Assembly: GCA_034401795.1 (NCBI GenBank)
Contig: CM067374.1
Span: 94,946,011 to 95,010,010, forward strand
Direction of reading: 5' to 3'
DNA length: 64,000 bases
DNA from: Chaetoderma sp. LZ-2023a
Taxonomy: Eukaryota; Mollusca; Caudofoveata; Chaetodermatida; Chaetodermatidae
Part shown: piece by piece, positions 2,347 through 63,903 of the stretch
Position numbering within the stretch: position 1 is the stretch's first letter
How the letters are laid out: every line of letters begins with the position of its first letter
Notes under the pieces: generated by a model
What the model saw: the letters and a program-made list of their open reading frames with translations, nothing else
What the model was told of the DNA's origin: nothing
The model's database searches: none
Position numbers and translations under genes: made by a program

Positions 2347-2768
2347 AATGGACCTTTCCAGTTTTAGCTTTGCCACCAACCTCACCCCACCCCACCCCAC
2401 CCACACCATGTTTAGTTAATCTCCACCCACGCTTCGCCTGTGCTGGGATCGATCGATCCCCGAATGCCCTGATGATCAATTTCCAGAAAACTATACAGCT
2501 AAGCTGTTAAATATTTTGAAACTAATTTGACTAGGGCAACATCTGCGCAGCATCGCCCAGTCAAATTAGTTTCAAAATATTCAACAGCATCTTTATTAAA
2601 TAGTAAACACACACAATTCGTACAACGACGCTTAGCCCGTCACCAATTATGGGTTCGTGACGTACTAATCTACGCCATTCATGACGCCATTGATTGTGAC
2701 GTCATCCTACACGTCGCCTAGTTGATTATGACGTCATATGATGGATGGATAAACTGGAACGGTCCATT
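2347..2768 (+). mobile_element. Family A hairpin element, full length
   Basis: One of the most complete copies. It starts AATGGACCTTTCCAGTTTTA and ends with an inverted match (AAACTGGAACGGTCCATT). The left arm has an expanded CCCCACCCCA run, then GATCGATC. The central palindrome spans about 2500-2590. The right arm has exact TGACGTCA sites at 2697-2704 and 2729-2736. It contains no coding capacity, so it is presumably mobilised by a transposase encoded elsewhere. No clear target duplication is visible. Confidence 0.85.
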
Positions 2769-2799
2769 ACTGTGCAATCATCAAATTTCAATAACCACA

Positions 2800-3495
2800 A
2801 TCAATATGACGTAGCCCCGATACGAAATAGGCAAGTCCGTCGCGAATGTGTACGACTTTTATGCCGTTGATGAATTTACAATTTAATGAACATTCTGTTG
2901 AACTTTTGAAACGTTTGAAATCGATTCTAACGCCCGTAAAAAGTGAGCTGAGATTGGCTAGAAATGGGCGGCGCATAGCTAGAAATGGGCGGTGCATAGA
3001 TAGAAATGGGCGGAGCATAGCTAGACATGGGCGGTGCATATCTAGAAATGGGTGGGTATAGCTAGAAATGGGCGGTACATAGCTAGAAATAGGCGGCGCA
3101 TAGCTAGAAGTGTGAGGGCATGGCCAGAAATGGGCGGAGCATAGCTAGAAATGGGCGGCGCATAGTTAGAAATGAGAGGCACATAGCTAAAAATTGGAGG
3201 ACATAGCTAAAAATGGGCGGCGCATAGCTAGACATAGGCGGCGTATAGCTAATAAAGGGCGATGCATAGCTAGAAATAGGTGGTGCATAGCTAGAAATGT
3301 GCGGCGCATAGCTAGAAATGAGCGGCGCATAGCTAAAAATGGGAGGCCATAGCTAAAAACGGGCGGCGCATAGCTAGACATAGGCGGTGCATAGCTAGCA
3401 ATGGGCGATGCATAGCTATAAATAGGTGGTGCATAGCTAGAAATGGGCGGGGCGTAGCTAGAAATTGGCGGGGCATAGCTAGAAATGGATCCCTC
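2800..3495 (-). mobile_element. Family B element with amplified left end
   Basis: Reverse-oriented copy. The CRE arm starts near 2810, then GTACGACTTTTAT and TTTAATGAACATTCTGTTGAA. It jumps directly from the hairpin edge to TTTGAAATCGATTC, so most of the hairpin is deleted. The left-arm terminal motif (CATAGCTAGAAATGGGCGG) is repeated about 25 times before the terminal GGATCC at 3487-3492. Confidence 0.8.
2956..3489. repeat. 21-bp minisatellite derived from the element terminus
   Basis: Unit GCATAGCTAGAAATGGGCGG plus one base (21 bp), about 25 copies, with scattered substitutions and a few 1-bp deletions (for example near 3055). The same motif occurs once at the left end of most A/B elements as CATAGCTAGARATGGGCGG. 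Two overlapping open frames through it (for example the seven-residue period ARNGRRI) are products of the 21-bp period, not genes. Confidence 0.97.
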
Positions 3496-3639
3496 TAATT
3501 CGGATGTTGACGTTGCGTAATCCAGTATTTTGGTCGAGTCTTTATCATATCAGTAATGACTCTGTTTTATTAACTGAGTACTGAAATCGTGTATCTATTG
3601 ATTTAAGACTAAAACCTTTTCTTATTGCTTTGCAGAAGC

Positions 3640-3760
3640 GTCTAAGACGGCAGCAACACCCAGTCAAATTAGTGTCGTGCTATTAGTAATGTATTGCGGC
3701 TTTTAACTCGAGTTACGTGAAATTCCGGACTCAAATGCTGCTTGATAACGCAAGTTACTG
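3640..3760 (-). mobile_element. Family B element fragment
   Basis: GGCAGCAACACCCAGTCAAA followed by a decayed CGTGAAATTCCGGACTCAAA, which corresponds to half of the hairpin plus the left arm of a reverse-oriented copy. Confidence 0.6.
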
Positions 3761-3877
3761 AGCCGGTACAGGCCCAGCAACCTGCACTATTAATGAATAC
3801 ATTGATCAAATGAAAAAAACTCCAGATGTAGCCATTGTTTAGTAGAGACAGAAATACAAGTTTCTTCCTTGAAAGCG

Positions 3878-4181
3878 GGATCCATTTCTAGCTATACACC
3901 ACCAATTTCCAGCTAAGCTCCTCCCAGTATCGTCCCCGTAGCCTGCGCTATCTGGGATATAGAGGTAACAAGCGGACTATTCTGAAACTACCAAAACTAT
4001 GGCAGCAACCGCTCCCGGTCAAATTAATTTTAAATTAGTGAATGTTTTATTAAATTACGTACACTTTCCTGCCGGACCTTTCAATTTTCGTGATAGAGTT
4101 GCGTAATTTTGATTGTCATGTCTGCTAACATGTGCCGTATTTGATTGTTACATAAGATCCTTGAGTGACAGATCATATCCC
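3878..4181 (+). mobile_element. Family B hairpin element, shortened
   Basis: Starts GGATCCATTTCTAGCTATAC and ends with TTGAGTGACAGATCATATCC. The first hairpin arm is largely missing (only TATTCTGAAACTA-like remnants remain), while the return arm GGCAGCAACCGCTCCCGGTC is clear. The CRE arm has decayed to single half sites. Confidence 0.8.
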
Positions 4182-4302
4182 TATATTAGATAATCACTAA
4201 CAAAGCAAGACAATTCAGAAAAAAACCCATAGAACATCTATATTCAGAAAGACTGAATGGCCAGCACAACATCAAGTATTCTGTCCACACATTTTGTTAA
4301 CA

Positions 4303-4679
4303 GAGGATTCCAGTTTATCGATCCATCATATGACATCATAATCAACTACGTCACGTGTAGGCTGACGCAATCATCAATTACGCTATGAATGATGCGATTA
4401 GGTCCGTCATAAATGCTTAATAGCCCGTGAAGTTGTACGAATTGTATTTCTTTACTGTTTAATAAACATTCTGTTGAATATTTTGAAACTAATTTAGCTG
4501 TTTAGCCATAGGCAGCAACAACACCCAATCAAATTAGGTTCAAAATATTCAAGCTTACCTGTATAGTTTTCAGAAAATGTATATTCAGATAGTGCAGGGG
4601 TCGATTGATCCCAAAACGAGCAAAGCGTGGGTGGAGGTTAGCTAGAGATGGGAATGGCATAGCAAAAACTGGATTCCTC
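4303..4679 (-). mobile_element. Family A2 hairpin element, full length
   Basis: Ends are the inverted pair GAGGATTCCAGTTT / AAACTGGATTCCTC instead of the family A ends, but the interior is family A: CRE arm (ATATGACATCATAATCAACT), AATAAACATTCTGTTGAA, hairpin, TTACCTGTATAGTTTTC, then GATTGATCCC. The hairpin loop side is slightly asymmetric. Confidence 0.82.
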
Positions 4680-4689
4680 CTATTCGCTT

Positions 4690-5030
4690 CAATTCTCATT
4701 TAGAATCCTCCACGCTGTCCTCATATTATTACCATTAGTAGGTTATTTGTCATGCTAATTATGGCTTTGGTTGTTGTCAAGCCAAAGAGTCAGCACATCT
4801 TTCAATCATTGTGTGGTATGTATATTGAGCAATGTACCGCGCCACTTACGGCGAATCTTCCTGACAATAAGCGTAATTTGCGAAACTTCGCATGAATAAA
4901 AAGTTATTTTACGCATCGCTGTTGATGATTTAGCTATACCACGTTGCTCTTTTATCGCATTTTCCTCCAGACTCATTATTCATGTAAAAAGCGCCACAAT
5001 GTATGACCTCATGTTGTGATAGGATTGATC
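4690..5030. other. Unassigned DNA
   Basis: No repeat family or coding signal recognised. Confidence 0.45.
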
Positions 5031-14471: not shown

Positions 14472-14840
14472 AATGGACCTCTCCAGTTTTAGGTATAGCC
14501 CCGCCCATCTCTATCTAAGCTCCACACACACTTCGCCAGTGTTGGGATAGATCGATCTCTGAACTATCTGAATATCAATTTCCAGATAATTATACAGGTA
14601 AGCTTCTTAATATTTTGAAACTAATTTGACTACCCATGGCAGAAGCAGCGTCCAGTCAAATTGGTTTCAAAATATTCAACAGAATATTTATTAAATGGTA
14701 AACACATACAATTCGTACAACGTGTCAGACTATTAAGCGTTAAAGAAGACTATATCGAGTCATTCATGACGTCCTGATTACACGTCACGTAGTTGATCCT
14801 GACGTCATATGATGGATGGATAAACTTGGAAACGTCCATT
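14472..14840 (+). mobile_element. Family A element, full length
   Basis: Left end AATGGACCTCTCCAGTTTTA, right end AACTTGGAAACGTCCATT. The left arm carries GATAGATCGATCTCTG and then TATACAGGTAAGC. The hairpin loop is shortened (ACCCATGGCAGAAGCAGCGT). Confidence 0.85.
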
Positions 14841-16312: not shown

Positions 16313-16716
16313 AATGGACCTTTCATTTTTAGCTATGCCCCGCCCATCTCTAGCTAAGCTCCATCAACACCTCACTCGTTTTGGGATCGATCGATCTGTG
16401 AACTCCCTGACTATCAATTTCCAGAAAACTATTCAGGTAAGCTATTGCATATTTTAAAACTAATTTGACTGGGTGCTGTTGCTGTCTATGGCAGTAATAG
16501 CGTCCAGTCAAATTAATTTCAAAATTTTCAACAGCATGTTTATTAAATAATAGAGACATACAATTCGTACAACGTGTCGGACTATTAAGAGTTAAAGACG
16601 GGACAAATAGAATCATTTATGACGTATAATGATCATGGCGTCACCATACACGCCGCTTAGATCATTATGACGTCATATGACGTCAGCTGATAGATGAATA
16701 CTCTGAAAAGTTGAGT
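16313..16716 (+). mobile_element. Family A element
   Basis: Left end AATGGACCTTTCATTTTTAG. The right end diverged to ACTCTGAAAAGTTGAGTT. The hairpin is complete (GCTGTTGCTGTCTATGGCAG). CRE sites TGACGTCA at about 16668 and 16678 are adjacent. Confidence 0.83.
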
Positions 16717-17483: not shown

Positions 17484-17870
17484 TATAATCCACGTTTAGT
17501 TATGACCTACCCATCTCTAGCCATCCCTCGCCATGCTTTGCGCGTGTTGGGATAGATTTATATACTTAGAATTCCCAATCCTAATTTCATGATTACTATA
17601 CATCTAACATGTTGACCATTTTGAACCTAATTTGGCTGGAAGTTGTTGCTTTCTATAGCAGCAACATCAGCCAGTCAAATTACATTCAACATATTCAACA
17701 TAGGTTTTTAAAATTAAATAGTAAACAATACAACTCGTACAGTTTGCTAACGGAATATTACAGGTTCATGACAGAGTACTTCTGTCACTTATGATTGTGA
17801 CATCAATCTATATCTGACATATCTGTTTATGACGTCATTGCTTGAGTGAAAGATTTGATTCGTCTCTATT
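17484..17870 (+). mobile_element. Family B element, diverged
   Basis: Left arm GCCATGCTTTGCGCGTGTTG, TTTATATACTT, then CTATACATCTAACATGTTGA. Hairpin arms TTTGAACCTAATTTGGCTGG and CCAGTCAAATTACATTCAAC. The right end GAGTGAAAGATTTGATTCG is weak. Confidence 0.78.
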
Positions 17871-18594: not shown

Positions 18595-18735
18595 AGCGAA
18601 ATTAGTTTCAAATTATTCGACAGCTTAATTACCTGCAGCGTTACCTTGAAACTGAAATCACGGGAATGCCGGGTTCAAAGTGTTAGAGACGATTCACACG
18701 TGCACACAAAGTGGGTGGAGCTTTGCTAGAAAATG
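18595..18735 (-). mobile_element. Family B half-element
   Basis: Return arm AATTAGTTTCAAATTATTCG, then TTACCTGCAGCGTTACCTTG, then AAGTGGGTGGAGC and GCTAGAAAATG. Its left end abuts the left end of the next copy. Confidence 0.72.
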
Positions 18736-19075
18736 ATGAATCCACTTTCCCGCCCATCTCTAGCTAAACTCCACCCACACTTTTCCCGAATCTAGCGAAC
18801 CCTGAACTCGATGAATCTCAATTTCCAGAAAACTATGCGGGTAAGCTGTTAAATATTCGGAAACTAATTTGACTGGGCGTTGCTGCTGTCTATGGTGGCA
18901 ACAGTGCCCAGTCAAATTGGTTTCAAAACCTTCACAAGAATTTCTATTAAGTAGTAAGAACACACGATTCGTACACGTGGAGGAATATTAAGAGTTCCTG
19001 ATGGACTTATTTTAATTTTAACGTCAGCCTTCCTGTGACGTATGTGACTATGCCAGCAGATACTTGACTGCCAAA
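18733..19075 (+). mobile_element. Family A/B element, head-to-head with its neighbour
   Basis: Begins GATGAATCCACTTTCCCGCC. It has TTTCCAGAAAACTATGCGGG with GGTAAGC, then a complete hairpin (GGCGTTGCTGCTGTCTATGG). The right arm has decayed from about 18990; only CTTCCTGTGACGTATG is left of the CRE array. Confidence 0.78.
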
Positions 19076-20231
19076 TTGGATTTCTCTATTGCGGTACATA
19101 TCTAGAAACTAACACTCAATTGACAAAATTAATGCTACGATGGCACGCTTCTCTCACTCCTTTCCCATGGAACTTGCTTGAAAATCATCCAACTCCGAGT
19201 CAGTCTCATCACAGTAACACGAGGTACATGATGTTATTCCGAGCTTGGTGAACAGATATGCGTGTCTTCGTGCTGTGAGCACCGTAGCATCCTCTGAATA
19301 CTGAGCAGCTATATATCAAGGCCGTTGCATTTTGAGAACAACTAGCCACCGTCAGTCAAGCAATGGAATCCAGGCATCTGATGTTTGCGTTCTCATTCCG
19401 ACAAATTAATTCGCGTTTCTGTCGCTAGCGGGTCCTTCCCAGATGAATGAAATGTATCCGGATGCATGCCAGCAGTTTAGATATCATTTTGCAACATTTC
19501 TATCATGGCGGGAAAGCATACGAATACGCGCCTATGCGTCTGCGCACGTAGTTACACGCCACCTGTCTATGCGCCATATTATCACAATAGACTAATAGCA
19601 GTTCCATTTGAAGATAGTATTCGGCAGCAGTATCGTTACACAGACTTACCATATCGTAATAATTTACGATATGAAAGATCCCCATCTACCTGGAGTACAA
19701 ATAGAACTTAAACTGCTGGACATTCAAACAGCTTGTGTGGAAGTTGTGTCTAACTGTTCATCTGCTACATCTGTTACCACTTCACAAAGCAGATATATTT
19801 ATATAGAACCTTGAACTGACTGGTGGATAACTGCGTACCACAAACACACGCCCCTTATAGTTTCAGTACTGGGCAAATCCGAGTCAATTCTCAATGACGT
19901 AGCTACGAGGTGGGGTGGGGCGGTGTGCAGGGGCAAACTGCCTCCCCTAAATGTATTTTGGGGAAACAGTTTGGAGAAATACGTATTTGTTCAGATTATT
20001 TAGCCCAAATTCAATCACCCTGAGTGCAGAAAATGGCACCTCAGGACATAAGATTTACCAAATATTTTCTAAAAAATCTCATTTCTCTAAATGGCCTAAC
20101 ACTGGCTCAATAACTTGTATTTTCAGGGATATCTAACAGAATGCGTCACATTAGCACGGAATTATCCAGAATGAAGTAAACATCTATATCCCAGCTCAGA
20201 AATAAGTTTAAATGTTTCCAATAAAAATAGA
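19076..20231. other. Unassigned DNA
   Basis: No family recognised. A G-rich stretch lies at about 19910-19930 (GAGGTGGGGTGGGGCGGTG). A short inverted repeat TTACCATATCGTAA / TTACGATATGAA lies near 19648. Confidence 0.4.
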
Positions 20232-20909: not shown

Positions 20910-21065
20910 ACTAGTTTAACCATTTGGACACTGAATTCCCAGAATCGCAATTTCAATGTAATTATACAGGCCGGTTATTGGGTATTTTGAAGCTGATTCG
21001 ATAGTTGTTGCTGACAAAATAGGTTTAAAATATTCGACACAATAGTTCTTCTATTGTAAATGATT
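20910..21065 (+). mobile_element. Family B element fragment
   Basis: ACTGAATTCCCAGAATCGCA, then TTATACAGG and both decayed hairpin arms (TTGAAGCTGATTCGATAG, TAGGTTTAAAATATTCGACA). Both ends are lost. Confidence 0.65.
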
Positions 21066-21104
21066 TTCCGTATTTGGGGTTCAAAACTCTAAAAACAAAC
21101 AAAC

Positions 21105-22718: not shown

Positions 22719-23123
22719 AATTCACCTTTCCAGAGTACCCACCCATCATATGACGTCATAATGAACTGCGTGGCGTGTAGAATGACATCATAATGAATGA
22801 CGTCATGAATGACGTCGATAAGTACGTCACGAATGCATATTTGAAGACGGTCTATGCGTTGCTGTACGAATTGTTTGCTTTTACTATTTAATAAATATTT
22901 TGTTGAATATTTTGAAACTAATTTGACTGGGCGCTGTTGCTGCCATAGGCAACAACAGCACCCAGTCACATTAGTTACACAATATTCAAAAGCTTCCCTG
23001 TATAGTTTTCAGGAAATTGATAGTTAGGGCATTCACGGAGATCGAGCGATCCCAACACTGCGAAGTTTGGGTGGAGCTTAACTAGAGTTGAGCGGGACAT
23101 AGCTAAAACTGGAAAGGTATATT
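22719..23123 (-). mobile_element. Family A element inserted into a LINE relic
   Basis: Right end AATTCACCTTTCCAGAGTAC at left, left end AAAACTGGAAAGGTATATT at right. The hairpin is complete (GGCGCTGTTGCTGCCATAGG). A candidate duplication at the flanks is not obvious (TTGGAC versus GCCTAT), so the target site is unresolved. Confidence 0.85.
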
Positions 23124-25011: not shown

Positions 25012-25373
25012 AATGGGCCATTCCCGTTTTAGCTATGCCCTGCCCATCTCTAGCTAAGCTCCACCCACACCTTACTTGCGTTGGGATCAATCGATCTCTG
25101 AACTCCCGGAATTTGATAGAAAACGGTGCAGGTAAGCAACAGCGCCCAATCAAATTAGTTTCAAAATATTCAACGACATGTTTATTAAATCGTAAAAACG
25201 TACAATTCGTGCAACAACGCTTAGTTCGTCGCCAATCGCCAATTGTGCGTACTTGACGAACTTAACTACGCCATTCATGACGTCATTGATTATGCCGTCA
25301 TCCTAGACGTCACGTAGTTGATTATGACGTCATATGACGTCAGATGATGGATGGATAAACTGGTAAGGTCCAT
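25012..25373 (+). mobile_element. Family A element with collapsed hairpin
   Basis: Left end AATGGGCCATTCCCGTTTTA, right end AACTGGTAAGGTCCAT. The first hairpin arm is deleted: GGTGCAGGTAAGC joins directly to AACAGCGCCCAATCAAATTA. It carries exact TGACGTCA at about 25326 and 25337. Confidence 0.83.
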
Positions 25374-39548: not shown

Positions 39549-39588
39549 CAAATACTATTCTGTTGACTATTTGAAGCTAATTAGACTG

Positions 39589-39645
<57 letters not shown>

Positions 39646-39990: not shown

Positions 39991-40595
39991 AGTTAAACAT
40001 TAATTTCCAATAGATATATTGACTCTATATATTGATTGACTCAAGGACATATTCTGGATCATTGGTTCTTTATGTAAAGTTTAGTTTGACGCATTTATAT
40101 ACTTGGTATGTCATAGCATATGATCAAGTCAACCCACTATGGGACACTTTTATCCCATCAAAGATGCACGTAGGACACAACGTTGCTCAATGACCTTCGA
40201 TGTCCCAATATATATGTTATTTTGAGGCCATGGCGATCCCTTTAGACTGTCTAATGGCCACGGTCAAGCGTTTTAATTGAGAACGACCATATCTTGTCCG
40301 CAAAAGGAAGGTGCGATGGTAGGCCGGTTTCGCTGTATATATGTATTAACATGTGTATTGTTACTTGGGTCATTTCCGTTTCTCTAGCAATAGATTGCAT
40401 GCACTTGTCGCAACACAAATATAATTATTCTGACCCAAATGAATAATAAACCGCTTTGTTAATAAAAGATAAGGATAACTTCCGGAGTGAATGATCGTAT
40501 GAATAATGGCACAGTGCGTAGAATAATTATTATCTGAGAGATGAAGCCCGGGCACGCTGACCATAGAATATAATATATGAATTAGATGTACTGTT
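39991..40595. other. Unassigned DNA
   Basis: No recognised gene or repeat. Confidence 0.4.
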
Positions 40596-40826: not shown

Positions 40827-41112
40827 TAACTATAGTTTAGACCTATGGAGTTGACATGTTTCTCTTAACCTCCAAGTTTTATGTATTCATGCAACATCAG
40901 CAATTAAAATCTTTGTATGCAGTGTACTTCCCTACCATCTGATCCAAACAAAACTGTGTTCATAAGGTTGATGTATCAAGACTTATCCTATGCCACAAGG
41001 TTTGAACCATACTGATATCACATGTGTTCACGCCATCTTACAGTTGACTAATAGTGAGATGTTCAAAGTACCTTTGCTGTGATAGCTGTGTAAACGTCCA
41101 TTTCTGTTACAA
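40827..41112. other. Unassigned DNA
   Basis: Nothing recognised. Confidence 0.4.
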
Positions 41113-41475
41113 TGGATGAATTCCAATCTGTGAATCATGTATTGACGTGATAATCAATTACGCCAGTTGTAGATTGGCGTCACAATAATAATTGGCAGAC
41201 AATACTCTACCATGAAGCGGGTAAAGTATTTCAAGTGTACGAATTGGATGTCTTTGATTTATTTACTAGTTAATAAACATTCTGTTGAATATTTTGAAAC
41301 TAATTTGACTAGGCGCTATTGCTGCCATAGCCAGCAACAGCACCGAGTCAAATTAGTCTCAAAGTATTCAACAGATTACCTGTAAAGTTACCTTGGAATC
41401 GGGATTCTGGGAATTCAGAGTTCTATCGACTCCATCACGCGCTAAGGATGGGTGGAGGTTAGCTAGAAATGGATC
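41113..41475 (-). mobile_element. Family B element, full length
   Basis: Right terminus (rc) GGATGAATTCCAATCTGTGA, decayed CRE arm (ATTGACGTGATAATCAATTA), AATAAACATTCTGTTGAA, full hairpin, TTACCTGTAAAGTTACCTTG, GGATTCTGGGAATTCAG, and left terminus TTAGCTAGAAATGGATC. Confidence 0.85.
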
Positions 41476-43840: not shown

Positions 43841-44428
43841 CACAAGAGGAGTTAGCATACTGTATGCATTGACTAATGGGTATAGTCATCTGAAAATATC
43901 GAGTTGGGGTGGGGTGTGTGGGGACATTCTTTTAAAGGACTGCTTGAGTGGTTAACAAAAAAATAATGGAAGTACGCTAGCTTATTGGCTTCCGATCGTC
44001 CTGAACGTTACGATTTCAGTCTGTCAAAACACTACTGTTCCGATAAATTAACTAGATAACATATTCCCACATCGATTGATTAAATATAGCTGCAAATATC
44101 AAGTGACACAAGGGTCTGCACCCACGAATCACTTGCTATTTGAAGCCGCGCTTAAGCCCAGAAAATCCGATCGATGCGGTGGGGGAGGGGGATAGTGTTA
44201 ATAGTTCATTTACCACCGTCGACTAACCTCACTGTAATGATCGAATTGACTCCGGCACATCTTAATAACCTCTTGCTCCAGTTTAGACCGACTAGGCACA
44301 TAGCTCATATTGCACTTTGCCGAAGTAATTGTTAAGACCGTTTTTTGAACTCGCAGAGATTGACCTTGGGGTAATGATTATGAAATTTAATAAACGGGGT
44401 ATTGTTTTGGTAACGACATCTAATTCAT
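43841..44428. other. Unassigned DNA
   Basis: G-rich patches near 43905 (GGGGTGGGGTGTGTGGGG) and 44180 (GGTGGGGGAGGGGG). No other structure. Confidence 0.42.
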
Positions 44429-44780
44429 GAATCCAGTTTCTGAGTCCATCATATGACGTCATAATCAATTACACGCGGTGTATGCTGACGTCATGATCAA
44501 TTACGTCATGAATGATTCGATTTAGTCCGTTTTAAACACTTAATAGTCCGTCAGGTTACGCGAATTGTGTGTCATTAGTATTTATTAAATATTGCTGTTA
44601 AATAGTTTCAAAATAATTTGACTGGGCGCTGTTGCTACAATATTCAACAGCTTACCTTACATATAGTTTTCTGGAAATTCAGATTCAGAGAGTGCAGAGA
44701 TCGTCAGATCCCAACACGAGCAACGCGTGTTTGAAGATTAGTTGTAAATGGGCGGGGCATAGCTAAAACCGGATTCCTCA
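44429..44780 (-). mobile_element. Family A2 element, hairpin partly deleted
   Basis: Ends GAATCCAGTTTCTGAGTCCA and GCTAAAACCGGATTCCTC. CREs TGACGTCA at about 44455 and 44486. The hairpin first arm runs to GGGCGCTGTTGC and then directly to TACAATATTCAACAGC. Confidence 0.83.
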
Positions 44781-44858
44781 AATGTTTCAATCACCAGTAG
44801 CAACAGAGCGGCCATAAATGTTCTAATGACATAGCTAGTTTGTCTAATGAATGGAGTC

Positions 44859-45643: not shown

Positions 45644-46024
45644 TTGGAGGAATCCGTGTAGTCAGTCAAGTATATGACGTCATAATCTATTACGTCCGCC
45701 ACGTGTAGCCTGGCGCCACCATCATAATTGACAGAAATACGCCGCTATCAATTGGAAATATTCCGTCCGTTGTAAGAAGTGTATGTATTTACCATTTAAT
45801 AAACATTGTTGAATATTTTTAAAAACTAATTTGTAACTTAATTTGGCAGCAATTACAGCTCCCAGTAAAATTAGTTTCAAAATATTCAACAACTTACCTG
45901 CATAGTTACCTTAAAACTTGGATTCTGGGAATTCAGGTTCAAACTATATAAATCGATCCCAACTCGCGAAAAGCATGGGTGGAGCTTAGCTAGAAATGGG
46001 CGGGACATATCTAAAAGTGGATGC
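45644..46024 (-). mobile_element. Family B element
   Basis: Right terminus (rc) GGAGGAATCCGTGTAG, CRE ATATGACGTCATAATCTATT, AATAAACATTGTTGAATATT. The first hairpin arm is corrupted, the return arm AAATTAGTTTCAAAATATTC is clear. TATATAAATCGATCCCAAC precedes the left terminus. Confidence 0.83.
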
Positions 46025-46227
46025 ACCGATGAATGATGATGGCATTGCATTAAGGAGTAGCTGGTAGTATAGACCACCTGTCTTAACGACCCCACCATTA
46101 TTCGACCACAATGCATCTCGACGATAGCAAATAAGTTGCTTTAAACGATCTGCCTGTAATGGGAACAATGTAATGGTTAGGACTGTGCCCGTTATAGAGA
46201 GGTTTCTCTATAATATGGCTAGAACGG

Positions 46228-46618
46228 AGGTACCCGATCTGTCACTCAAGTATATGATGGTATAATCAATTACACCACATGTAGACTGCCGTCATGATAA
46301 TAAGGGTGTATTATAACTCAATCATGGAACTTGAAATGCGAATGTGTACGAATTGTATGCTTTTGTTGGATTTACAATTTACGAAAGAACATTCTGTTTT
46401 AATATTTTGAAACTAATTTGACTAGGTGCTGTTGCTAACATCGGCACCAACAGCGCAGTTAATTTAGTTTCAAACTATTCAACAACTTTCCAGTATAATT
46501 GCCGTGAGAATGGGATTCTCGTTCCTCAGGATTCAAAGTATTTAAATCGAGTCCAATATGCGCACAAAGTGGGCGGAGATTCTCTAGAAATGGGCGGGAC
46601 ATAGCTAGAAATTGATCC
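46228..46618 (-). mobile_element. Family B element
   Basis: Right terminus (rc) GATCTGTCACTCAAGTATAT. CREs decayed to TATGATGGTATAATC. The hairpin has a loop variant (GGTGCTGTTGCTAACATCGG). Left terminus GGGCGGGACATAGCTAGAAA. Confidence 0.83.
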
Positions 46619-46759
46619 GTCAACTGCATTTCCTATTATAGCTGTGATTCTGTCACGCTGATGTTAAGATGTATAGATGACATTTGACCTCTAGCTTTTA
46701 TATCAACGTCACTTGCCATATCAAACTGAACGTAGCTAATCTGATTTTAATTAAACTAT

Positions 46760-46880: not shown

Positions 46881-47729
46881 GTTTAGTAAATCTCCTCGAT
46901 GTTTATATAAAATACGTGTTGTTAGCGGGCACATGCCGGGATAGTCGCTTAGATGATGATTTACATGGGTATTTGGCCCATATTTAATAGAAGTACTACA
47001 AACAAAAAATGTCTGCACTGTGCAACCCTGGTTGGTGTATGAAAATTACATCGTTTTGCGATGTCGAAGATATAACCAGTCAATTGTTCATGAATGCATA
47101 CGCTGTGTGTGGTGGGTTGGTGTGATTTGGGGATGGTTTGTTTTGAAACATAAAACTAATAAAATTATATTCAAAGACGAAGCCGTGTTCTTTGAAACAT
47201 TACTTTGCTTATAATTCGCGTGTAGAAAACCATATTTTGTATGCTGATAACCCTAATAAGCTCAAACGATTGCATTGCTGTCATCGTCATCTTCATCTGA
47301 GAACGTCTATCGAAAGTCATTTGAGTGACCACTCGGATCTATGAATCACGTTATCTGTCGGCTAATATCAACCTCCTTATTCATAATGAAGGCGTATGCA
47401 CATACAGCATCTTGATATAACTATCTTTCGATATAACAACACATTACACATTTTATATACAACGGACATACCCAATGCTGTGGAGGAGAATTGATAATTA
47501 GAGTGGGGTGGGCGGCGATGGGGTGGAGGAGGGTGTGTGTGTGTGCTTTAAAGCATGTCCAACCTATACAAGAAAAATATCAGACAGTGAAAATATGCCG
47601 ACTGCTTTCATTGTTTCGTCTGCGTTAGTCACAGCTTTCTCAGCAGAGAACAGTCCGTGATTATGTTGAACGTGTCTAAAAGTATTCTGTTCATTGCCGA
47701 GCATTCACCCTTTGACCACGAAACATCAA
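46881..47729. other. Unassigned DNA
   Basis: A G-rich run near 47505-47545 (GGTGGGCGGCGATGGGGTGG) ends in (GT)n. No gene recognised. Confidence 0.42.
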
Positions 47730-47935
47730 AACACCAAATTCCTTTACGATTTAATAAATTTTATCTTGATTGGATTACAATTACTTTAACTGGAAGCTGC
47801 TGCTGCTGCCTATGCCAGCAACTGGTTCCTGTCTAATTAGTTTCAAAAATGTTCATTAACTCGCTTGTTTAGTTACCTTGAAATTGAGAATCTGGGAACT
47901 CAGTGTTCAAACGATTAAGAATGAGACACACGTGT
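47730..47935 (-). mobile_element. Family B fragment
   Basis: GATTTAATAAATTTTATCTT, loop GGAAGCTGCTGCTGCTGCCT (mild CTG expansion), TAATTAGTTTCAAAAATGTT, TAGTTACCTTGAAATTGAGA. The CRE arm is absent. Confidence 0.75.
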
Positions 47936-48372: not shown

Positions 48373-48771
48373 AATGGACCTTTCTATTTTTAGCTATGCC
48401 ACGCCCATCTCTAGCTAAGCTCCACACACATCTCGCTCGCTTAGGGATCGATCGATCTCTGAACTCCCTGACGTATCAATTTCCAGAAAACTATACAGGT
48501 AAGCTGTTGAATACTTTGAAACTAGTTTGACTGGTTGTTGTTGATGACTCTGGCAGCAACAACACCCAGTCAAATTAGTTTCAAAATATTCAACAGCATC
48601 TATTTTAAATACTAAAGATACAATTCGTCCAACAACGCTTAGTCCGTCGCCAATTATGTGTTCGTGTCGTACTTATCTACGTCATTCATGACGTCATTGA
48701 TCCAACACGTCACGTATCTGATTATGGCGTCACATCAACTAGGTTTAATGGGTACACTGGAAAGGCGCATT
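48373..48771 (+). mobile_element. Family A element, full length
   Basis: Left end AATGGACCTTTCTATTTTTA, right end ACACTGGAAAGGCGCATT. GGGATCGATCGATCTCTG, ATACAGGTAAGCTGTTGAA. Hairpin loop TTGATGACTCTGGCAGCAAC. CRE TGACGTCA at about 48690. Confidence 0.87.
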
Positions 48772-49281: not shown

Positions 49282-49407
49282 TGTAGGCGATATACAGGAG
49301 CAGTTCGTAGGCACCACGGATAAAGACCATCTCAAGCTCTTTGACATAATATAGCAAATATATCAAACTCAATTAGAAAGATCTGATTTGAAATGAGCTT
49401 CAGCTAT

Positions 49408-49597
49408 GGATGAATCCAATCTGCCAGTCGAATATATGACGTCATAACGAATTGAGCCACATTGTGGCTGATGTCACAATAATAATTGAATGAAATGCTC
49501 CGTCGTGAACCTGGAATAGTCCGTCAGTTATATGAATTGTGGGTCTTTACTATTTAATAAGCATTCTGTTGAATATTTTGAAACTAATTTGACTGGG

Positions 49598-49634
<37 letters not shown>

Positions 49635-49782
49635 ATAGGCAGCAACAGCTACCCATCCCCAATTAGTTTCAAAATATTCAACTGGTTTGCTGCATTGCCA
49701 ACATGCAATTGGGATTCTGGGAATTCCAAATTTGAAGTATATAAATCGACCCCAACACGTACAACGCATGGGTGGAGCTTAT
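49408..49782 (-). mobile_element. Family B element with CTG-expanded loop
   Basis: Right terminus (rc) GGATGAATCCAATCTGCCAG, CRE ATATGACGTCATAACG, GAATATTTTGAAACTAATTT, expanded loop, return arm, TATATAAATCGACCCCAAC, and a truncated left terminus GGGTGGAGCTTA. Confidence 0.87.
49601..49634. repeat. (CTG)n expansion inside an element hairpin
   Basis: Eleven TGC/CTG units replace the usual GTTGCTGC of the hairpin loop. The normal return sequence ATAGGCAGCAACAGC follows immediately, so the expansion is one-sided. Confidence 0.95.
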
Positions 49783-50095
49783 ACGAGGTGCAGGCTGGAA
49801 CTATCAGCTTAGCAAAAAGGTATGCTAGACCGTTTTATAAGATAATAGCTCTCATGTGTATTGAATTTCGCTGGCTTTTGGCCACGAATGCCGATGAGGA
49901 ACATATATCAATCGTATTTGATAATTTCATTCATGCGTGCCAAGAAACCTACTGTATGCGCTGTACAAAGCTAATAGCTGAGCTGAAATAAGTGATTAAT
50001 CCAATGACACCACACAGGGCGCTCAAAGCTGCCTGGCAATGGCGAATGCAGACGTAGATGTCTACATAGTGGGCAGTTTATGAAGCAGTTAAACA

Positions 50096-50205: not shown

Positions 50206-50459
50206 TAGATGGGAAAAGGCTACATATTATCCAGCCATGTCGGTCTAGTCATAATGAGGATGTTTACACCCTGTTTTCTGCATCGAGCTTGTCAGAAATC
50301 ACGAGCTAAAGGTAGCATTTTGTCATATATTTGGTTAGTGAAAGGCATCCACTATGTATAGTGGAATGTCTGCCCAGTGATGGAAAATACAATTCATATT
50401 CCTTCTACCTGGAAAAGAGGAACCTAACAGTATGTTGAATATGATGGTCTTATCTGTCA

Positions 50460-50838
50460 CCGACTTCTTCCCATTTCTTTATAGTGGCATTGGTAATGTC
50501 TGTGATCGCTCGATCCCTGAACTCGCTGACTATCAATTGCCAGAAGAGTATACAGGTAAGCTGTTGAATATCTTGAAACTAATTGGACTGGGTGCTGTTG
50601 CTGCATTTGGCACCAACATTGCTCAGTCAAACTAGTTCCAGAATATTGAACAGCATATTTATTAAATAGTAAAGACATACAATTCGTACAACAACGCTTA
50701 GTCCGTCACCAATTATGCGTTCGTGACGCACTTATGTACGTCATTTTCATGACATCATTTATTATGGCGTCATCATACACGTCACGTATTTGATTATGAC
50801 GTCATATGATGAGGGATAAATTGGACAGGTTCATTGAC
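50460..50838 (+). mobile_element. Family A element, left terminus decayed
   Basis: TGTGATCGCTCGATCCCTGA, GAGTATACAGGTAAGCTGTT, hairpin loop GCTGTTGCTGCATTTGGCAC. Right arm with TGACGTCA at about 50798 and end AAATTGGACAGGTTCATT. Confidence 0.84.
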
Positions 50839-51119
50839 TTTATTATCATGTATTACAATAGAAAATCCGTTAATTGCCCCAAACGTGTAGGCAGATTGTG
50901 AAAGCATCCACCCAGCATCGTATTCTCGACTCAATACGTACACAAACTAGATCGTACACGGACTAGATATATACATTGCTTATCGCTAAAGATGGATAAT
51001 CATACTATTTTGCTACTAACAACTGCTAACAACGGAATCGGGTAAATGTATTATGGCAAATATGACTTTGCTCTTTTGAACTCGAAAGTCCAACTATGAA
51101 AAATTACCTGCATTCCATC
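50839..51119. other. Unassigned DNA
   Basis: Contains a repeated ACTAGATCGTACACGGACTAGAT motif near 50948. Otherwise nothing recognised. Confidence 0.4.
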
Positions 51120-51290
51120 ACTTATTTTGTTCAAATATTTTATAGCTGAATGGAGTGGAAGCTGTTTCTGCTCATGGTAGCAAGAAGTTCCAGCTAAATT
51201 AGTGTTTAAAAGGTTAACCTCGTCGCCTGTATGGCTACCTTGAAATTGTGATTCTGGGAATTCAGTGGTCAAAAGGGTTAATCATAGGCT
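51120..51290 (-). mobile_element. Family B fragment
   Basis: GGAAGCTGTTTCTGCTCATG, CAGCTAAATTAGTGTTTAAA, GTATGGCTACCTTGAAATTG, ATTCTGGGAATTCAGTGG. Confidence 0.7.
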
Positions 51291-51349
51291 ACACCTAAGT
51301 AAAGGTTGTTTGTGAAACACCACTACAAGTACGAATTAATGGAAATCTC

Positions 51350-51905
51350 ACCTTATCTTATATAAACCATTCCTGTGATAGAATTTGCCACCCATCCCTG
51401 GCATGTTAGCTTTTCATCGCGCCGACAATGAAAAATATTTAGGCTTCAGTAGCTAAATGTTGATACATTTCTACAGCCTATGATGGCTGTCATCATTTAC
51501 TTTTCAACCGATCAGAAAAAATTTAGCGTTTCTTCCTCGGTATATATGCTCAGTCATAGAGGTGCCAGCTATAGTTTGGCAAAAAGCAATCATACAGTTA
51601 AGCTGTTGAATATTTTGAAACTAATTCGACTGGAAATTCTTGCTGCCATAGGCAGCAACAACTTCTAATCAAATTAGTTTCTAAATATTCAACGGGATGA
51701 GTATTACATAATGAAGAATGTAAAGCATTGGCATTTAAATGACATCAACAATATAGCTTGAAGAGACAAAATGGTGACGATAAGGCAGATAATTGTGATA
51801 TAGATAAGGGAATGTGACAGGATATGAATGATATGGAATCTACAAACTATAACCTATCGGCATAATACAATATTTGAGAAGAGATAAGAATCACTTTAAA
51901 CAACG
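51350..51905 (+). mobile_element. Family E element, copy 2
   Basis: Shares with 30925-31510: GATAGAATTTGCCA, TACATTTCTACAGCCTATGA, GGCTGTCATCATTTACTTTT, GCTCAGTCATAGAGGTGCCA, CAATCATACAG. On the right it shares GAGTATTACATAATGAAGAA and AATACAATATTTGAGAAGAG. Its central hairpin is more complete than copy 1 (TTCTTGCTGCCATAGGCAGC). Confidence 0.8.
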
Positions 51906-54770: not shown

Positions 54771-55157
54771 ATGGACCTTTCCATTTTTAGCTATGCCCCG
54801 CCCATCTCTAGCTAAGCGCCACCCAGACCTCGCTCGTGTTGTGATCGATCGATCTCTGAACTTCCTGACTATCAATTTCCAAAAAACTATTCAGGTAAGC
54901 TGGTGAATATTTTAAAACTAATTTGACTGGGTGCTGTTGCTGCCTAAGTCAAATTAGTTTCAAAATATTCACCAGCATGTTTATTAAATAGTAGAGACAT
55001 ACAATTCTTACAGCGTGTCGGACTTTTAAGAGTAAAGGACGGGACGTATAGAATCATTTATGACGTAATGATTATAACTTCATCATACACGCCGCTTAGC
55101 TGATTATGACGTAACATGTTGTCAGACGATAGATGGATACTCTGGAAAGGTGAATTG
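54771..55157 (+). mobile_element. Family A element with a possible target duplication
   Basis: Left end ATGGACCTTTCCATTTTTAG, right end ACTCTGGAAAGGTGAA. GTGATCGATCGATCTCTG, TATTCAGGTAAGCTGGTGAA. The hairpin loop is collapsed (GTGCTGTTGCTGCCTAAGTC). The flanks TTGTAC (left) and TTGTAT (right) could be a duplicated target, the only such case I saw. Confidence 0.86.
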
Positions 55158-55962: not shown

Positions 55963-56359
55963 AATTCATCTTTCCAAAGTATTCGTTGATCATCTAACCT
56001 CGTATGACGTCATAATCAGCTCAGCACGTGTATGATGACGCCACAATCATAACGTCACAAAGGGTACCATATAGACCTTCATCACATCGCAGAGTCCAAC
56101 ACGTTGTATGAATTGTATGTCTTTGTAATTTTTTGCTATTTAATGAACATGCCGTTGAATATTTTGAAACTAATTTGAGCCTTGGGCAATAACAGCATCC
56201 AGTCAAATTAGTTTCAAAATATTCAACAGCTTACCTGTGTAGTTTTTTGGAAATTGGTAGTCAGGGTGTGCAGAGATCGATCTATCCCAACACGGGCTAG
56301 GTGTGGGTGGAGCTTAGTTAGAGATGGGCGGGGTATAGCTAAAAATGGAACGGTCCATT
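55963..56359 (-). mobile_element. Family A element, full length
   Basis: Ends AATTCATCTTTCCAAAGTAT and AAATGGAACGGTCCATT. TATGACGTCATAATCAGCTC, GTATGAATTGTATGTC. The hairpin first arm is cut at AATTTGAGCC. TTACCTGTGTAGTTTTTTGG, GATCGATCTATCCC. Confidence 0.86.
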
Positions 56360-58285: not shown

Positions 58286-58571
58286 GGTGGTGATTTGCGA
58301 TGACAGAGCAACCTATGTACCTCATTTTCTAAAAGAAAAGGAGAACTTCATATAAATACAATTATAGTACAAATTCTGATTGTTTTAAAGTATATCATTA
58401 TCCTGCTTTTCTATGATGGTTAATGCCATTCCGTCAAGAGGTCATGTTTAATAGGATGCTAATCTTATCTCGAGCGTCTCATTGTATGGATAAATTAATG
58501 GTATTGCGATTCCGTATGATTTACCTTCAAGATGCTGCTCAGTGTGTCTACATTTGCATATCACAATAATG
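58286..58571. other. Unassigned DNA
   Basis: Nothing recognised. Confidence 0.4.
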
Positions 58572-58888
58572 GAAGGTTTCAGTTTATCCAACAATCATAT
58601 GACGTCATCATAAACTACGTGATGTTTAGGATGACGTCATAAAAAATTATGTTATGAATGACTCGATTTAGTCCGTCTTAAATGCATGCTGTCGAATAGT
58701 TACAAAAAAACTAATTTAACTGGGCGCTGTTGATGCAATGGGCCACTACTGCACTCAGTCAAATCAGTTTCAAAATATTCGAAAGCTTGCATGTGTAGTT
58801 TTCTGGAAGTTGATAGTCAGGGATCGATCGATCAGTGTGGGTTGAGCGTAGCTAAATATAGGCGGGGCATCGCTAAAACTGGATTCCT
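58572..58888 (-). mobile_element. Family A/A2 element
   Basis: GGAAGGTTTCAGTTTATCCA, ATATGACGTCATCATAAACT, hairpin loop GGCGCTGTTGATGCAATGGG, GGATCGATCGATC, end GCTAAAACTGGATTCCTCC. It pairs a family A-like right end with an A2 left end. Confidence 0.82.
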
Positions 58889-58909
58889 CCATTCTCCTTT
58901 TAACCCTTT

Positions 58910-59136
58910 AACCCTCAAATTTGTTCAAGAAAATTGTAATTTTTTCACAGTAAATGACCATTTGTAGACTAAGAGCAGATTATTTTTTTTAACTACCACT
59001 GGAATGACTGGGCCGTTTATCGAGCCAGGTATTCAAGTTGTACATTTTCAAAAAACTGTTCTCATGGAATGCAAATGGGCATTTCAGAAGACCCCTGCAG
59101 AAGCCGTTTTATCAGGTTTCAGCGCTAAAGGGTTAA
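58910..59136. mobile_element. Family C element, best-preserved ends
   Basis: TTAACCCTTTAACCCTC at the left and CGCTAAAGGGTTAA at the right, 227 bp, with TTAA at both termini as in piggyBac insertions. Centre TGGGCCGTTTATCGAGCCAG. It starts 21 bp after the end of the previous element. Confidence 0.87.
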
Positions 59137-59239
59137 TCTCGCGATAATATTGTTTCGTGTGCATCGCCACCTTGTTTCATGAAGCGATAGTACGCGCTGC
59201 CATGCAGATGCTGGCATAACACATTATTTATCAAGTGAT

Positions 59240-59345
59240 AGGTTTACCGAGCCTGTTGAATATTTTGAAATTAATTTGACTGAAAGATGTTGTTAACGTG
59301 TTACTGAAAGCAGCCGCACCTTCCCACCACATTGGTTTCACAACA
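59240..59345 (+). mobile_element. Hairpin-element fragment
   Basis: GCCTGTTGAATATTTTGAAA, TTAATTTGACTGAAAGATGT, ACATTGGTTTCACAACAGTC. Confidence 0.6.
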
Positions 59346-60225
59346 GTCAACAGTTCATATGGATGGGTGGTCTTGCACAGCACTGCCAGATTAAATTATA
59401 ACTATATAATTGTACGCATATGCCGAGACGGGCGGTTGTTGTATTTTCGAAATGTACAGCATGTTTTCGCTTTGATACACTAAGGAAATGCATTAAAATA
59501 TATCTATTTCAAAACGAAATTCTCTCTTTGAAGGCGAGATACAAATCTAACGACGTCAATGCAGATGTTTATCCATGACATATGCTATCGCCTGAATAGC
59601 TAGTATTAAGTGAGACGAGTAAGAGAGATCCCTAGATCAGCAAAAATCACTTAGAAATCGCCTGAGACTGATACAAAAGATAGGGAATACAATAGACAAA
59701 TAGATAAGCATGCAAATATAATTCAATACAGATACATAAACCCATTGTCAGATAGATATCGCATATCACACGCGTACATCATTTGCTAGGCAATTACAAC
59801 ATCAATTTGATAGCCATGGTATGTAAGTAGACATCTGTAGACTAAATTTCATTTTAAATAAAAACAGATGCATATTGAATTATTATTCTTACACATTCCT
59901 TTCGAATCGCGATCTAATTAGTTGTTGCCATTATTTGGCATCGCATGAAAAAAAGCGGAAACGATTTTTAATGGTTGCTATTTCCGCGATATGTGTGATT
60001 AAGAATAGTACGCTCTTCGTAGGCCTGGAATTATTGACCGTATCTGACATGAATTCGCGCTAGATTAATATTGTTCAAAGGAGTATGATTATATCGATAT
60101 TTCAATCAATGCACCGCTGCCTGTCCCAATGTGCGAGTACAATATCTAAGCGTGTTAACATTCGTAATGACGTATTTAAACCGGGTAATCGAGGGCAAAT
60201 CTACAAAATAAGGATTGCAGGTGAG
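59346..60225. other. Unassigned DNA
   Basis: Nothing recognised. Confidence 0.4.
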
Positions 60226-61626: not shown

Positions 61627-62053
61627 AGATGAATCCACTTTTAATATACCACGCCCATTTCTAGCTAAGCTCCGCCCATGCTTTGTCCGTGGTGGGATCG
61701 ATATATATATATATTTATACTTTGAGCATCGACTTGAGAGAATTCCAATTTCAAGATAACTATGCAGGTAATCTGTGGGATATTTTGGAACTAATTTGAC
61801 CTGAGGCAGTTGCCGTTTTGCACGAAGGGCCTATGCCAGTAACATCGCCAAGCCAAATTATTTTCAAATTGCTCAAGAGAATGATTAGTAAATGGTAAAG
61901 GCATACATATCGTACAACTGACGCACTATTCGAGGTACATGATGGACCTAGTTACGTCATTCATACCCGCATTTTGATTGCGACGTCAGCCTACATATAA
62001 TACAATAGATTATCACGGCATATACTTGTCTGACAGATCGGATCCACCCATTA
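61627..62053 (+). mobile_element. Family B element, full length
   Basis: Left AAGATGAATCCACTTTTAAT, CACGCCCATTTCTAGCTAAG, (AT)n inside GGGATCGATATATATATATA, CTATGCAGGTAATCTGTGGG. The hairpin has about 20 bp of extra loop sequence. TTGCGACGTCAGCCTACATA; right TGACAGATCGGATCCACCCA. Confidence 0.86.
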
Positions 62054-62334: not shown

Positions 62335-62572
62335 TTAACCGTTTTATTCAGAGACCGACCAAAATCAGCCTCTGTAGTAGTCTTGAGGAATGTCCATTTA
62401 CAGGAAAAGAGAAGAGTATGTGCGAAAATTCCACTGGAATGACAGTCTGGGCAACCGAGCCAGTCATTCCAGTGGTAAATTGTCAAAAATTGTATTTTCT
62501 TGGTCTGCAAATGGGCATTCAATAAGCAAATATTTTGATATTCTGGACCAAGTTTAGTCATTAACGTGTTAA
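62335..62572. mobile_element. Family C element
   Basis: TTAACCGTTTTATTCAGAGA at the left, CATTAACGTGTTAA at the right, 238 bp. Near-perfect arms around the centre (CCACTGGAATGACAGTCTGG, GAGCCAGTCATTCCAGTGG). Confidence 0.85.
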
Positions 62573-62869
62573 TGCTTCATCGATAATTGGGCTAAATAAA
62601 TGTATGTGTTATAGTTAATTTTATTTCGCAATGATACGACGAATGATGCACACATATCTATCAGAACTCATTAGTAATATGTCAAGGACTCCTTGCATTC
62701 TGATGACCAGGGTGGCATGATGTGAGCTCTAATGGGGCGGGGGCCGGGTGGGCGAGTCCGATTCATTCGCATGTATTTGCTGTCAGCGTAGTTCATTTCC
62801 GATTGTTGCAATCAGATTACTGCAGTTCACCGCGGTTCACGATGTAGGTTGTTGCTAAAACCTAACAAT
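62573..62869. other. Unassigned DNA
   Basis: A short G-rich stretch (GGGGCGGGGGCCGGGTGGGC) at about 62733. Nothing else. Confidence 0.4.
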
Positions 62870-62946
62870 ACCACAGATCTTAGCCAAATCCTGAAACTGT
62901 AATTTGAAAGAATGTATATTAAATAAAAAAGACGTACAATTCGTCC
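62870..62946 (+). mobile_element. Hairpin-element fragment ending in a microsatellite
   Basis: AGCCAAATCCTGAAACTGTA, AAGAATGTATATTAAATAAA, GACGTACAATTCGTCCAATA, then directly AATAAT repeats. Confidence 0.65.
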
Positions 62947-62960
62947 AATAATAATAATAA

Positions 62961-63003
<43 letters not shown>
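62947..63003. repeat. (AAT)n microsatellite
   Basis: About 18 AAT triplets with one extra A near 62970. Confidence 0.96.
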
Positions 63004-63139
63004 CTTTATTTCAAGAGGGTACATCGTCAGTGGCCTGATGTTCCCGAGGCCTTCAAAACATATATACACTATGTACAATAATACATAATTTAATGCACGC
63101 CAGGTATGTACAAATAGACATATGTACAATAATTCCACT

Positions 63140-63240
63140 TACACGCACGCATGCACGCACTCACTGAGACACGCAGGCGGGCGGGCAGGCAGGCAGACAG
63201 GAAGGCAGGCAGACATGTAGGGAGGCAGACATGCAGACTT
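63140..63240. repeat. Degenerate tetranucleotide tract (CACG, GGCA)
   Basis: ACACGCACGCATGCACGCAC, then GCGGGCGGGCAGGCAGGCAG and GGCAGGCAGACA. Confidence 0.85.
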
Positions 63241-63261
63241 ATATTAGTTGCGAGTCTCTTC

Positions 63262-63530
63262 AAGGTAACTGGCAAGCTGTTAAAATATTTTGGGAAACTA
63301 ATTTGACCGGACGCTGTAGATACCTAAGGCAGCAACTGCGTCCAGCCATATTAGCCTCACAATATTAAACAGAATAATTATTAAATCCTCAACAACACTT
63401 AGTCCGTCATCAATTAAGCGTACGTGACGAACTTAGCTACGTCATTCATGACGTAATAAATTATGACATTATCCTACACGTTACGTAGTTGTTTTTGATG
63501 TCATATGATTGAGTGATAAATTGGAATCCA
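63262..63530 (+). mobile_element. Family A element, left arm missing
   Basis: CTGGCAAGCTGTTAAAATAT, hairpin (GGACGCTGTAGATACCTAAG, CAGCAACTGCGTCCAGCC), right arm ACTTAGTCCGTCATCAATTA. Its end GATAAATTGGAATCCA overlaps the start of the next element. Confidence 0.78.
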
Positions 63531-63903
63531 CCGTTTCTAACTATCGCCTGTCCAGTTTAAGCTAAGCTCCGTCCACTTTGGACGGACGTTTGAATCGATT
63601 TCATATTTTGAACCCTGAATTCATATACTCCCATTCTCAATGTGAATATACCGGTAATGTGTTGAATAGTTTTAAAGTAATTTGTCTGACAGCTCTTGTT
63701 GTCGCAGACAGCAACAGTCACAGTGAAACTAGTTTCAAAATACTTACCAGAATGTTCATTAAATTATAATTCGAACGACACTACCGTGACTAACCCTGTC
63801 CACTTTCGCGATGGCCCTTCGTCATTTGATTGTGACCATGGCTAATTAGTGACGTATTTTCATTATGACGTCAGATACCTGCATGACATATCGGATACCT
63901 CCA
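63521..63903 (+). mobile_element. Family B element, last complete copy
   Basis: GGAATCCACCGTTTCTAACT, AAGCTAAGCTCCGTCCACTT, TATACCGGTAATGTGTTGAA, hairpin loop GCTCTTGTTGTCGCAGACAG, ATTATGACGTCAGATACCTG, end CATATCGGATACCTCC. Shares its left end with the right end of the preceding element. Confidence 0.83.

Follow-up and report, generated by a model that had tools for sequence, protein, structure and literature searches.

A 64,000-nucleotide stretch of the genome of the caudofoveate mollusc Chaetoderma sp. LZ-2023a (assembly GCA_034401795.1, contig CM067374.1; hereafter, the window) is populated by short repeats that share a central hairpin and that fall, by their outer sequences, into families A, B, and E; a fourth family, F, was recovered elsewhere in the genome. 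These repeats make up a very abundant set of short non-coding transposons in which the same central hairpin was retained while the outer ends, and probably the enzymes that move the elements, changed. We lean toward reading them as one foldback lineage of miniature inverted-repeat transposable elements (MITEs; short, non-autonomous DNA transposons of the cut-and-paste kind) built around a central palindrome of ∼91 bp that is common to the families, with the hairpin putatively acting in cis in amplification.

The 20-mer TTGAATATTTTGAAACTAAT matched the window 63 times at three or fewer mismatches against 0.01 matches expected by chance, which rules out a chance origin; these matches are arms, and each hairpin can contribute up to two. 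A BLAST search of the window with one core as query (E up to 0.1) gave 53 merged core loci, a few of them weak. The initial annotation had counted about 60 copies of a ∼90-bp palindrome; the repeated core is real, and its number is nearer to these 53 loci. An edit-distance scan found 32 two-armed hairpins and 26 single arms (three shuffles scanned on one strand gave 2, 0, and 0 hits), and the most frequent loop between the 31-nt core arms was 31 nt long. Outer sequences do differ among A, B, and E in the window copies, as had been proposed. Assigned to the best-scoring family model, 70 stretches covered 17,765 bp of the window: 57 of A (fragments and tandem pieces counted), 10 of B, 3 of E, and none of F. 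Viral contigs, prokaryote contigs, and phages, collections without relatives of the host as far as known, gave no match to the core elements.

Across the 2.44-Gb genome, an exact 28-nt core arm occurred 64,648 times (32,040 + 32,608), and its reversed control did not occur. We also sampled twenty 3-kb stretches at round coordinates on 16 contigs (60 kb in total). At the same threshold, this sample held 34 core arms and the 64-kb window 80, so the window is richer in core arms than the sample; the four family models covered 9.1% of the sample (A, 3632 bp; B, 861 bp; F, 862 bp; E, 126 bp). Scaled from this small sample, a rough figure for the whole genome is ∼1.4 million core arms. An exact 28-nt arm of F occurred 3981 + 3892 times.

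B is a complete MITE with CCCTTTGAACC termini, laid out as TTAA-CCCTTTGAACCC..GGGTTCAAAGGG-TTAA. Its 211-bp consensus (20 loci) has 16-bp perfect inverted ends that include the TTAA, which both ends carry without mismatch in 15 of 20 copies and with no more than one mismatch in 18. These loci came from a genome search with window positions 47690-47935, in which at least 40 places were scored, mostly spanning the query from ∼17 to 233. The middle parts of the B arms no longer pair; only the ends and the center do. E is a 608-bp TTAA element, TTAAAGGAAATCTC..GCATCCCTTTAA (16 loci, from a search in which the best 40 of 7556 first-look candidates were scored), with TTAA exact at both ends in 8 of 16 copies and within one mismatch in 14. 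Inside the TTAA, it starts with AGG and ends with CCT, and so departs from a 5′-CC..GG-3′ pattern. One E copy (L094) lies at the TTAA of another core-type hairpin, and joining its flanks closes that palindrome. The left arm of E (window 51318-51580) is itself an imperfect long inverted repeat, giving two consecutive foldbacks in this family.

The F consensus, TTAACTGTCTGCCTGC..GCAGTAAGACAGTTAA, is 213 bp long (eleven local copies) and forms an inverted repeat over its whole length: 76 of 106 positions matched in one copy, and for the middle arms, 0 of 5000 shuffles were as good. TTAA was exact at both ends in 4 of 11 copies and within one mismatch in 7; the sequence inside starts with CTG and ends with CAG, again not 5′-CC..GG-3′. 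One F copy sits inside a longer repeat (L050:1342-3000) that is present at 39 or more other places with 94-97% identity. This young repeat carries the F hairpin with 54-nt arms, a second core, and a tail motif, CAAGCGGCCCAATGGGCC..CTCACCTGG, that presumably recalls the tails of mollusc long interspersed nuclear elements.

A has a ∼395-bp consensus with sharp ends, from 25 aligned window copies (picked by whole-element model score from 35, with ten partial or rearranged copies dropped). Its 5′ end reads AATGGACGAATCCA in this mixed set and TGGACCTTTCCAGTTTTAGC in a larger set of 72 copies; the opposite end is near its reverse complement, and the termini are GGACC..GGTCC. End motifs in the element set as a whole include TTAACCCTTTGAACC, TTAAAGG, and GGACC. 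Among the 38 A copies with both ends, AAT preceded the element in 30, ATT followed it in 28, and both were present in 24; TTAA directly outside the ends was found in 0 of the 38. Longer target duplications did not rise convincingly above permuted pairs, the best (z 3.87) falling inside the conserved end. Three nested A copies, 25013-25373 and 18734-19090 in the window and L007:1399-1758 in another repeat, fit a single AATT-like site; a fourth (L077) gave no clean fit, and rows L040, L065, and L073 were taken as arms or low-complexity matches and not as empty sites. A insertion thus entails either a 2-bp AT duplication or no duplication, between AA and TT, two alternatives that are indistinguishable. 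Element boundaries and the sites of nested insertion both map to the outer ends; the hairpin, therefore, is not the mobile unit, contrary to the possibility raised in the initial annotation. We also rejected an identity as short interspersed nuclear elements (SINEs): the termini are inverted, and the target sites are fixed (TTAA or AATT).

The variant A2 had been set apart as a further set of arms. Its right ends, ATGGATGAATCCA, can be matched to those of A by way of intermediate copies such as ATGGAGGAATCCA, both by eye and in the alignment, and a separate arm set was thereby ruled out: judged from these alignments, A2 is diverged A. The A and B families are related beyond the core. The B model aligns through A copies from ∼8 to 173, the right 38 positions of B being absent from A, and with E copies from 35-40 to ∼176-196. 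Between A and B, left-flank alignments scored 15 over the first 17 bp and 26 over the next 44 bp (0 of 5000 shuffles as good in each case), and the right 25 bp scored 19 (0 of 5000), with nothing significant farther out (2167 of 5000). Between E and B, the left 17 bp scored 17 and the right 25 bp scored 14 (65 of 5000); E and A scored 18 of 25 on the right (1 of 5000). E thus shares with the other families only the core and ∼17 + 25 bp of flank, and a relation between the outer arms of F and B is unproven (104 to 878 of 5000 shuffles as good). A consists of B positions ∼8-173 plus new ends: a B-type interior with its own termini and an AATT target. The inner left flank of the core carries ATACAGGTAAGC in the A, B, and E consensus, which we take to resemble a 5′ splice donor (CAG/GTAAG). 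The suggested check for further arm types on the same core came out positive: the core recurs with four kinds of ends that differ in termini and target sites. The arms of A are nevertheless homologs of those of B and of A2, and free exchange among them is not supported.

The anatomy of A also lends itself to a different account, which we consider possible though the less probable one: B inserted into another MITE, X, and the X-B-X sandwich spread with the X ends as A, the core being a passenger. A has its own ends and target, and the left arms of A2 retain a B block that begins beside the B terminal repeat, near CTTTGAACCC. However, the right 38 positions of B are missing in A, and a core that was merely carried along would not be expected to be the best-conserved part of the element. 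Moreover, the whole genome contained just 8 core-free X junctions (exact pattern, gap 2-32); on inspection by eye, 7 of them retain B-derived flank (one of these only CCCTGAA), so that they look like deletions of A; an amplified, coreless X was rejected on these counts.

Conservation was concentrated in the core. In the 25 window A copies, mean divergence from the consensus was 8-9% in the core arms, 14-15% in the inner flanks, 20-28% in most of the outer arm, and 28-33% in the terminal repeats. Outside CpG-type sites, core and arms differed in every family (A, 7% vs. 21-27%; E core arms, 4-6% vs. 16-18%; B, 6-7% vs. 10-13%; F, 6% vs. 16-20%), and core divergence was below that of the arms in 25 of 25 A copies, 13 of 15 E copies, 15 of 19 B copies, and 9 of 11 F copies. 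The B and E loci had been chosen by BLAST score over the entire query; L079 was left out of E and L059 out of B, and the count of private changes was made also without L083 and L070.

For a tree of A, we used 43 copies that had not been fetched via the core and took the topology from the arms alone. These remained after 29 of 72 copies had been removed by shared 40-base words, a filter that additionally loses some copies whose only link is a perfect core and so biases the comparison against a conserved core; in the C1 stretch of L009-L038, all exact core arms had been fetched themselves, and the neighbors kept lean to imperfect cores. An earlier 72-copy tree included core-fetched copies, and position-based removal of 23 left a few via overlapping loci. 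On internal branches of the 43-copy tree, the core accumulated 0.11 units of change vs. 0.84 in the arms. Four mock cores, each made of 40 arm columns that played no part in building the topology, had 0.80-1.04 on internal branches and 5.50-6.62 on terminal branches; the near-absence of internal change is, therefore, special to the core. Together with the divergence of the window copies, the tree upholds the initial observation of a conserved core and variable ends.

Where the core differs from family to family, a change on one arm mostly has its mirror image on the other. The consensus cores have 2 (A), 2 (E), 3 (B), and 0 (F) mismatched arm positions of 45. We measured covariation in 57 hairpins, each 91 nt long and together representing all four families; they were drawn from 116, with duplicates and at least one other hairpin of this length (L071:2439-2529) omitted. 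Paired cells amounted to 88.4% vs. 85.6% after shuffling, doubly changed cells to 95 vs. 45, and the covariation score to 0.152 vs. 0.101; controls with the pairing slid reached at most 66 cells and 0.066. The strongest column pairs were 34-58, 31-61, 32-60, 7-85, 18-74, and 30-62. The little core change in shared lineages, together with the mirrored changes, suggests a constraint on the hairpin in transposing copies.

Mirrored changes that retain pairing would also be expected if the hairpin were kept via a transcript, as double-stranded RNA feeding small RNAs or as an RNA element, and not as DNA. Four copies folded with DNA parameters, one each from A, B, E, and F, gave very stable hairpins (z -10.5 to -16.3), and there is a precedent in primates, where miR-548 derives from MADE1, a palindromic MITE. 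No Rfam family reached the gathering threshold within the window, however, and if the host benefited, inserted copies should stay under constraint, a prediction with only partial evidence in its favor. We regard this explanation as unlikely.

On the reading that we favor, the ancestral plan would be a ∼210-bp, TTAA-inserting element folded back on itself, the anatomy seen in B and F. We read A as derived from B since B and F share length and plan; the reverse direction is possible. A B-type element would have lost its outermost parts, gained new sequence on each side (left, ∼85 bp; right, ∼150 bp), and thereby acquired the termini GGACC..GGTCC and the AATT target; E holds the same core in unrelated arms. 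We infer that each family moves whole by its own outer ends, with transposases supplied in trans from elsewhere. In lineages still transposing, the hairpin would change far less than the arms and termini, the gap between core and arms being much smaller after insertion. The hairpin would then probably favor amplification in cis irrespective of the transposase at work, with its structure and, in part, its sequence as the cause. A role at the DNA level, as a cruciform or a single-strand foldback, seems to us likelier than protein binding because the mirrored substitutions keep the pairing and not the letters. Foldback amplification is an existing idea. Distinctly speculative is a reading in which the hairpin would be a transposase-independent module that raises copy number in any cut-and-paste vehicle. 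On that reading, it would have come through one or more changes of termini and target site (TTAA to AATT) and would owe its retention to selection among elements and not to the host. It has long been asked how MITEs amplify to hundreds of thousands of copies, usually with attention to their ends; a set with changed ends and a retained center makes amplification driven by an inner hairpin directly testable with natural families. Our search of the open-access literature found no title describing this element set, which is weak evidence of novelty.

Several results weigh against a cis-acting hairpin in a single lineage. Terminal branches of the A tree were also shorter in the core (3.30 vs. 5.32 in the arms, ratio 0.62), so that even decay after insertion is not established, and the ratio of core to arm distance stayed approximately constant (0.37-0.44) at all pairwise distances, which the favored reading does not predict. 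Private changes were rarer in the core of F (P = 0.001, 11 copies) and leaned the same way in B (P = 0.059); equal private rates in A and E were rejected as proof of even decay, as almost identical figures result when core and arms mutate independently, each at its own rate. The two arms of one copy resembled each other no more closely than did arms taken from separate copies (0.173 vs. 0.170; the 23 of 32 hairpins with both arms within 6 edits); mirrored change, therefore, arises in lineages and not in single copies, and the covariation amounts to few family-level events. Pairs changed on both sides numbered 19, a figure equaled by the control in which the pairing was shifted one column. In its outer left arm (next 44 bp), E showed no relation to B (2193 of 5000 shuffles as good), and no autonomous partner was found for any family. 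One genomic piggyBac, of which only the flanks were read, has ends TTAACACGTTGACTGCC and TTAACACATTGACTGCC and resembles B in its first bases only.

The shorter terminal branches and the nearly constant distance ratio fit the view that core conservation reflects mutation or repair, through lower mutability or homogenization between copies; the core also changed more slowly whichever base (A, T, G, or C) occupied the site (in the 72-copy set that includes copies chosen by core). Yet the internal-branch ratio of 0.13 is far below the terminal 0.62, the 23 hairpins compared above gave no sign of homogenization within copies, and fourteen E copies lacked the A-type tract in the one diagnostic stretch inspected. 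This explanation, too, appears improbable to us. Least credible is free recombination of the hairpin between elements with arms as exchangeable modules, as the initial annotation had proposed: E outer arms are unrelated to those of B and F outer arms show no clear relation, but A2 is an A variant, A and B have a homologous left arm outside the core, 26 of 30 exact-core-arm rows, as we read them, carry both A arms beside the core (the rest being one with a right A arm only, two from a single E copy, and one B-like), and no mixed-arm element was noticed among the 30, with no dedicated test made.

Table 1. Copies of families A, B, and E in the window
Feature	Position	Strand	Basis
A, full-length, core 2504-2587	2348..2768	+	A model 2-395 of 396, 352 bits
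A, full-length	4299..4681	-	A model
A, full-length	14473..14840	+	A model
A, full-length	16317..16716	+	A model
A, A2-type left arm, full-length	17487..17865	+	A model, arms by eye
A inside left arm of older A2-like copy (18596-18732)	18734..19090	+	Nested, informs target site
A, full-length, stable hairpin 22901-22991	22719..23119	-	A model, folding
A inside A right arm (flanks 24915-24995, 25375-25503)	25013..25373	+	Nested, informs target site
A, full-length	30475..30831	+	A model
A, full-length	34801..35164	-	A model
A, A2-type left arm retaining B-type TGAATTCCCAGAATC block	41111..41473	-	A and B models
A, full-length, core rearranged	44422..44781	-	A model
A (A2), full-length, B-type TTTGAACCTGAATTCCCAGAATC block in left arm	45644..46028	-	A model, B consensus
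A (A2), full-length	46223..46624	-	A model
A, full-length	48374..48771	+	A model
A (A2), core loop GTTGCTGC expanded to TGC microsatellite (∼11 units, 49601-49634)	49405..49803	-	A model
A	50437..50835	+	A model
A, full-length	54772..55156	+	A model
A, full-length	55963..56358	-	A model
A, full-length	58568..58892	-	A model
A (A2), full-length	61628..62052	+	A model
A (A2)	63531..63904	+	A model
B, near full-length, left of the range first annotated	1221..1419	+	B model 3-211 of 211
B	20917..21085	+	B model 2-204
B split by ∼300 bases including an AAT repeat	39502..39996	-	B model 1-112 (39890-39996), 123-210 (39502-39588)
B, full-length, genome-search query	47704..47918	-	B model 1-211
B	51073..51279	-	B model 3-206
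E, full-length	30925..31513	+	E model 2-608, 439 bits
E, full-length, genome-search query, among 16 model copies	51337..51899	+	E model 2-608, 542 bits
E, diverged	59134..59619	-	E model 12-489, 143 bits

The window has other features as well. At 2957-3488, the 21-bp unit GCTAGAAATGGGCGGCGCATA, which corresponds to outer left-arm sequence of A, forms a tandem array of 25 copies; here, a MITE end is turning satellite-like. The right arm of A (e.g., 2690-2745) carries TGACGTCAT palindromes, presumably the letters of a CRE (cAMP response element) site, which the numerous A copies disperse widely, and at 21104-21454, a pair of A right arms stands head to head as a larger inverted repeat beside a B copy. 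A core-less repeat at ∼44859-45090, 48105-48343, and 58900-59136, judged by eye, has TTAACCCTTT-like ends that resemble B and a different interior, in which GGCTCG..CGAGCC marks a separate inverted repeat. The stretch 12134-13638 has no core repeats and contains retroelement domains, a reverse transcriptase and an RNase H.

Among known systems, foldback or palindromic MITEs such as MADE1 are resembled by F, with its inverted repeat over the whole 213 bp, and the great stability of the hairpins folded from the four families is a further likeness; unlike such elements, B has unpaired arm middles, and the center outlives changes of the ends across families. Kolobok-type elements target TTAA, and E and F, which have TTAA and lack CC..GG termini, are possibly of this type. 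B resembles piggyBac-like TTAA MITEs. For piggyBac, 4-bp duplications and 5′-CC..GG-3′ ends are reported (PMC10045372); B, bounded on either side by TTAA and ending in CCC..GGG, is in keeping with that pattern. The genome is also rich in piggyBac domains (PF13843; at least 119 matches, with 116 of 427 candidates scored and all listed matches above the cut-off). However, the central palindrome is shared with families that lack CC..GG (E and F) or TTAA (A). A recalls Spy and ISL2EU of the PHIS superfamily. Spy is described as inserting in AAATTT or AAWTT without duplication (PMC11304231), and the AATT insertions of A, which duplicate either nothing or a 2-bp AT, agree with that account; the likeness concerns the target site, and no transposase is linked to A, none having been searched for. 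Finally, MER6 with its SINE V domain is reported to have carried a conserved inner segment through a change of mobile vehicle (PMC6887750). Retention of an inner segment across such a change would be the point in common with the present elements; in MER6, the segment went from a SINE to a mariner MITE, whereas in Chaetoderma, the core is a palindrome at the center of several DNA elements.

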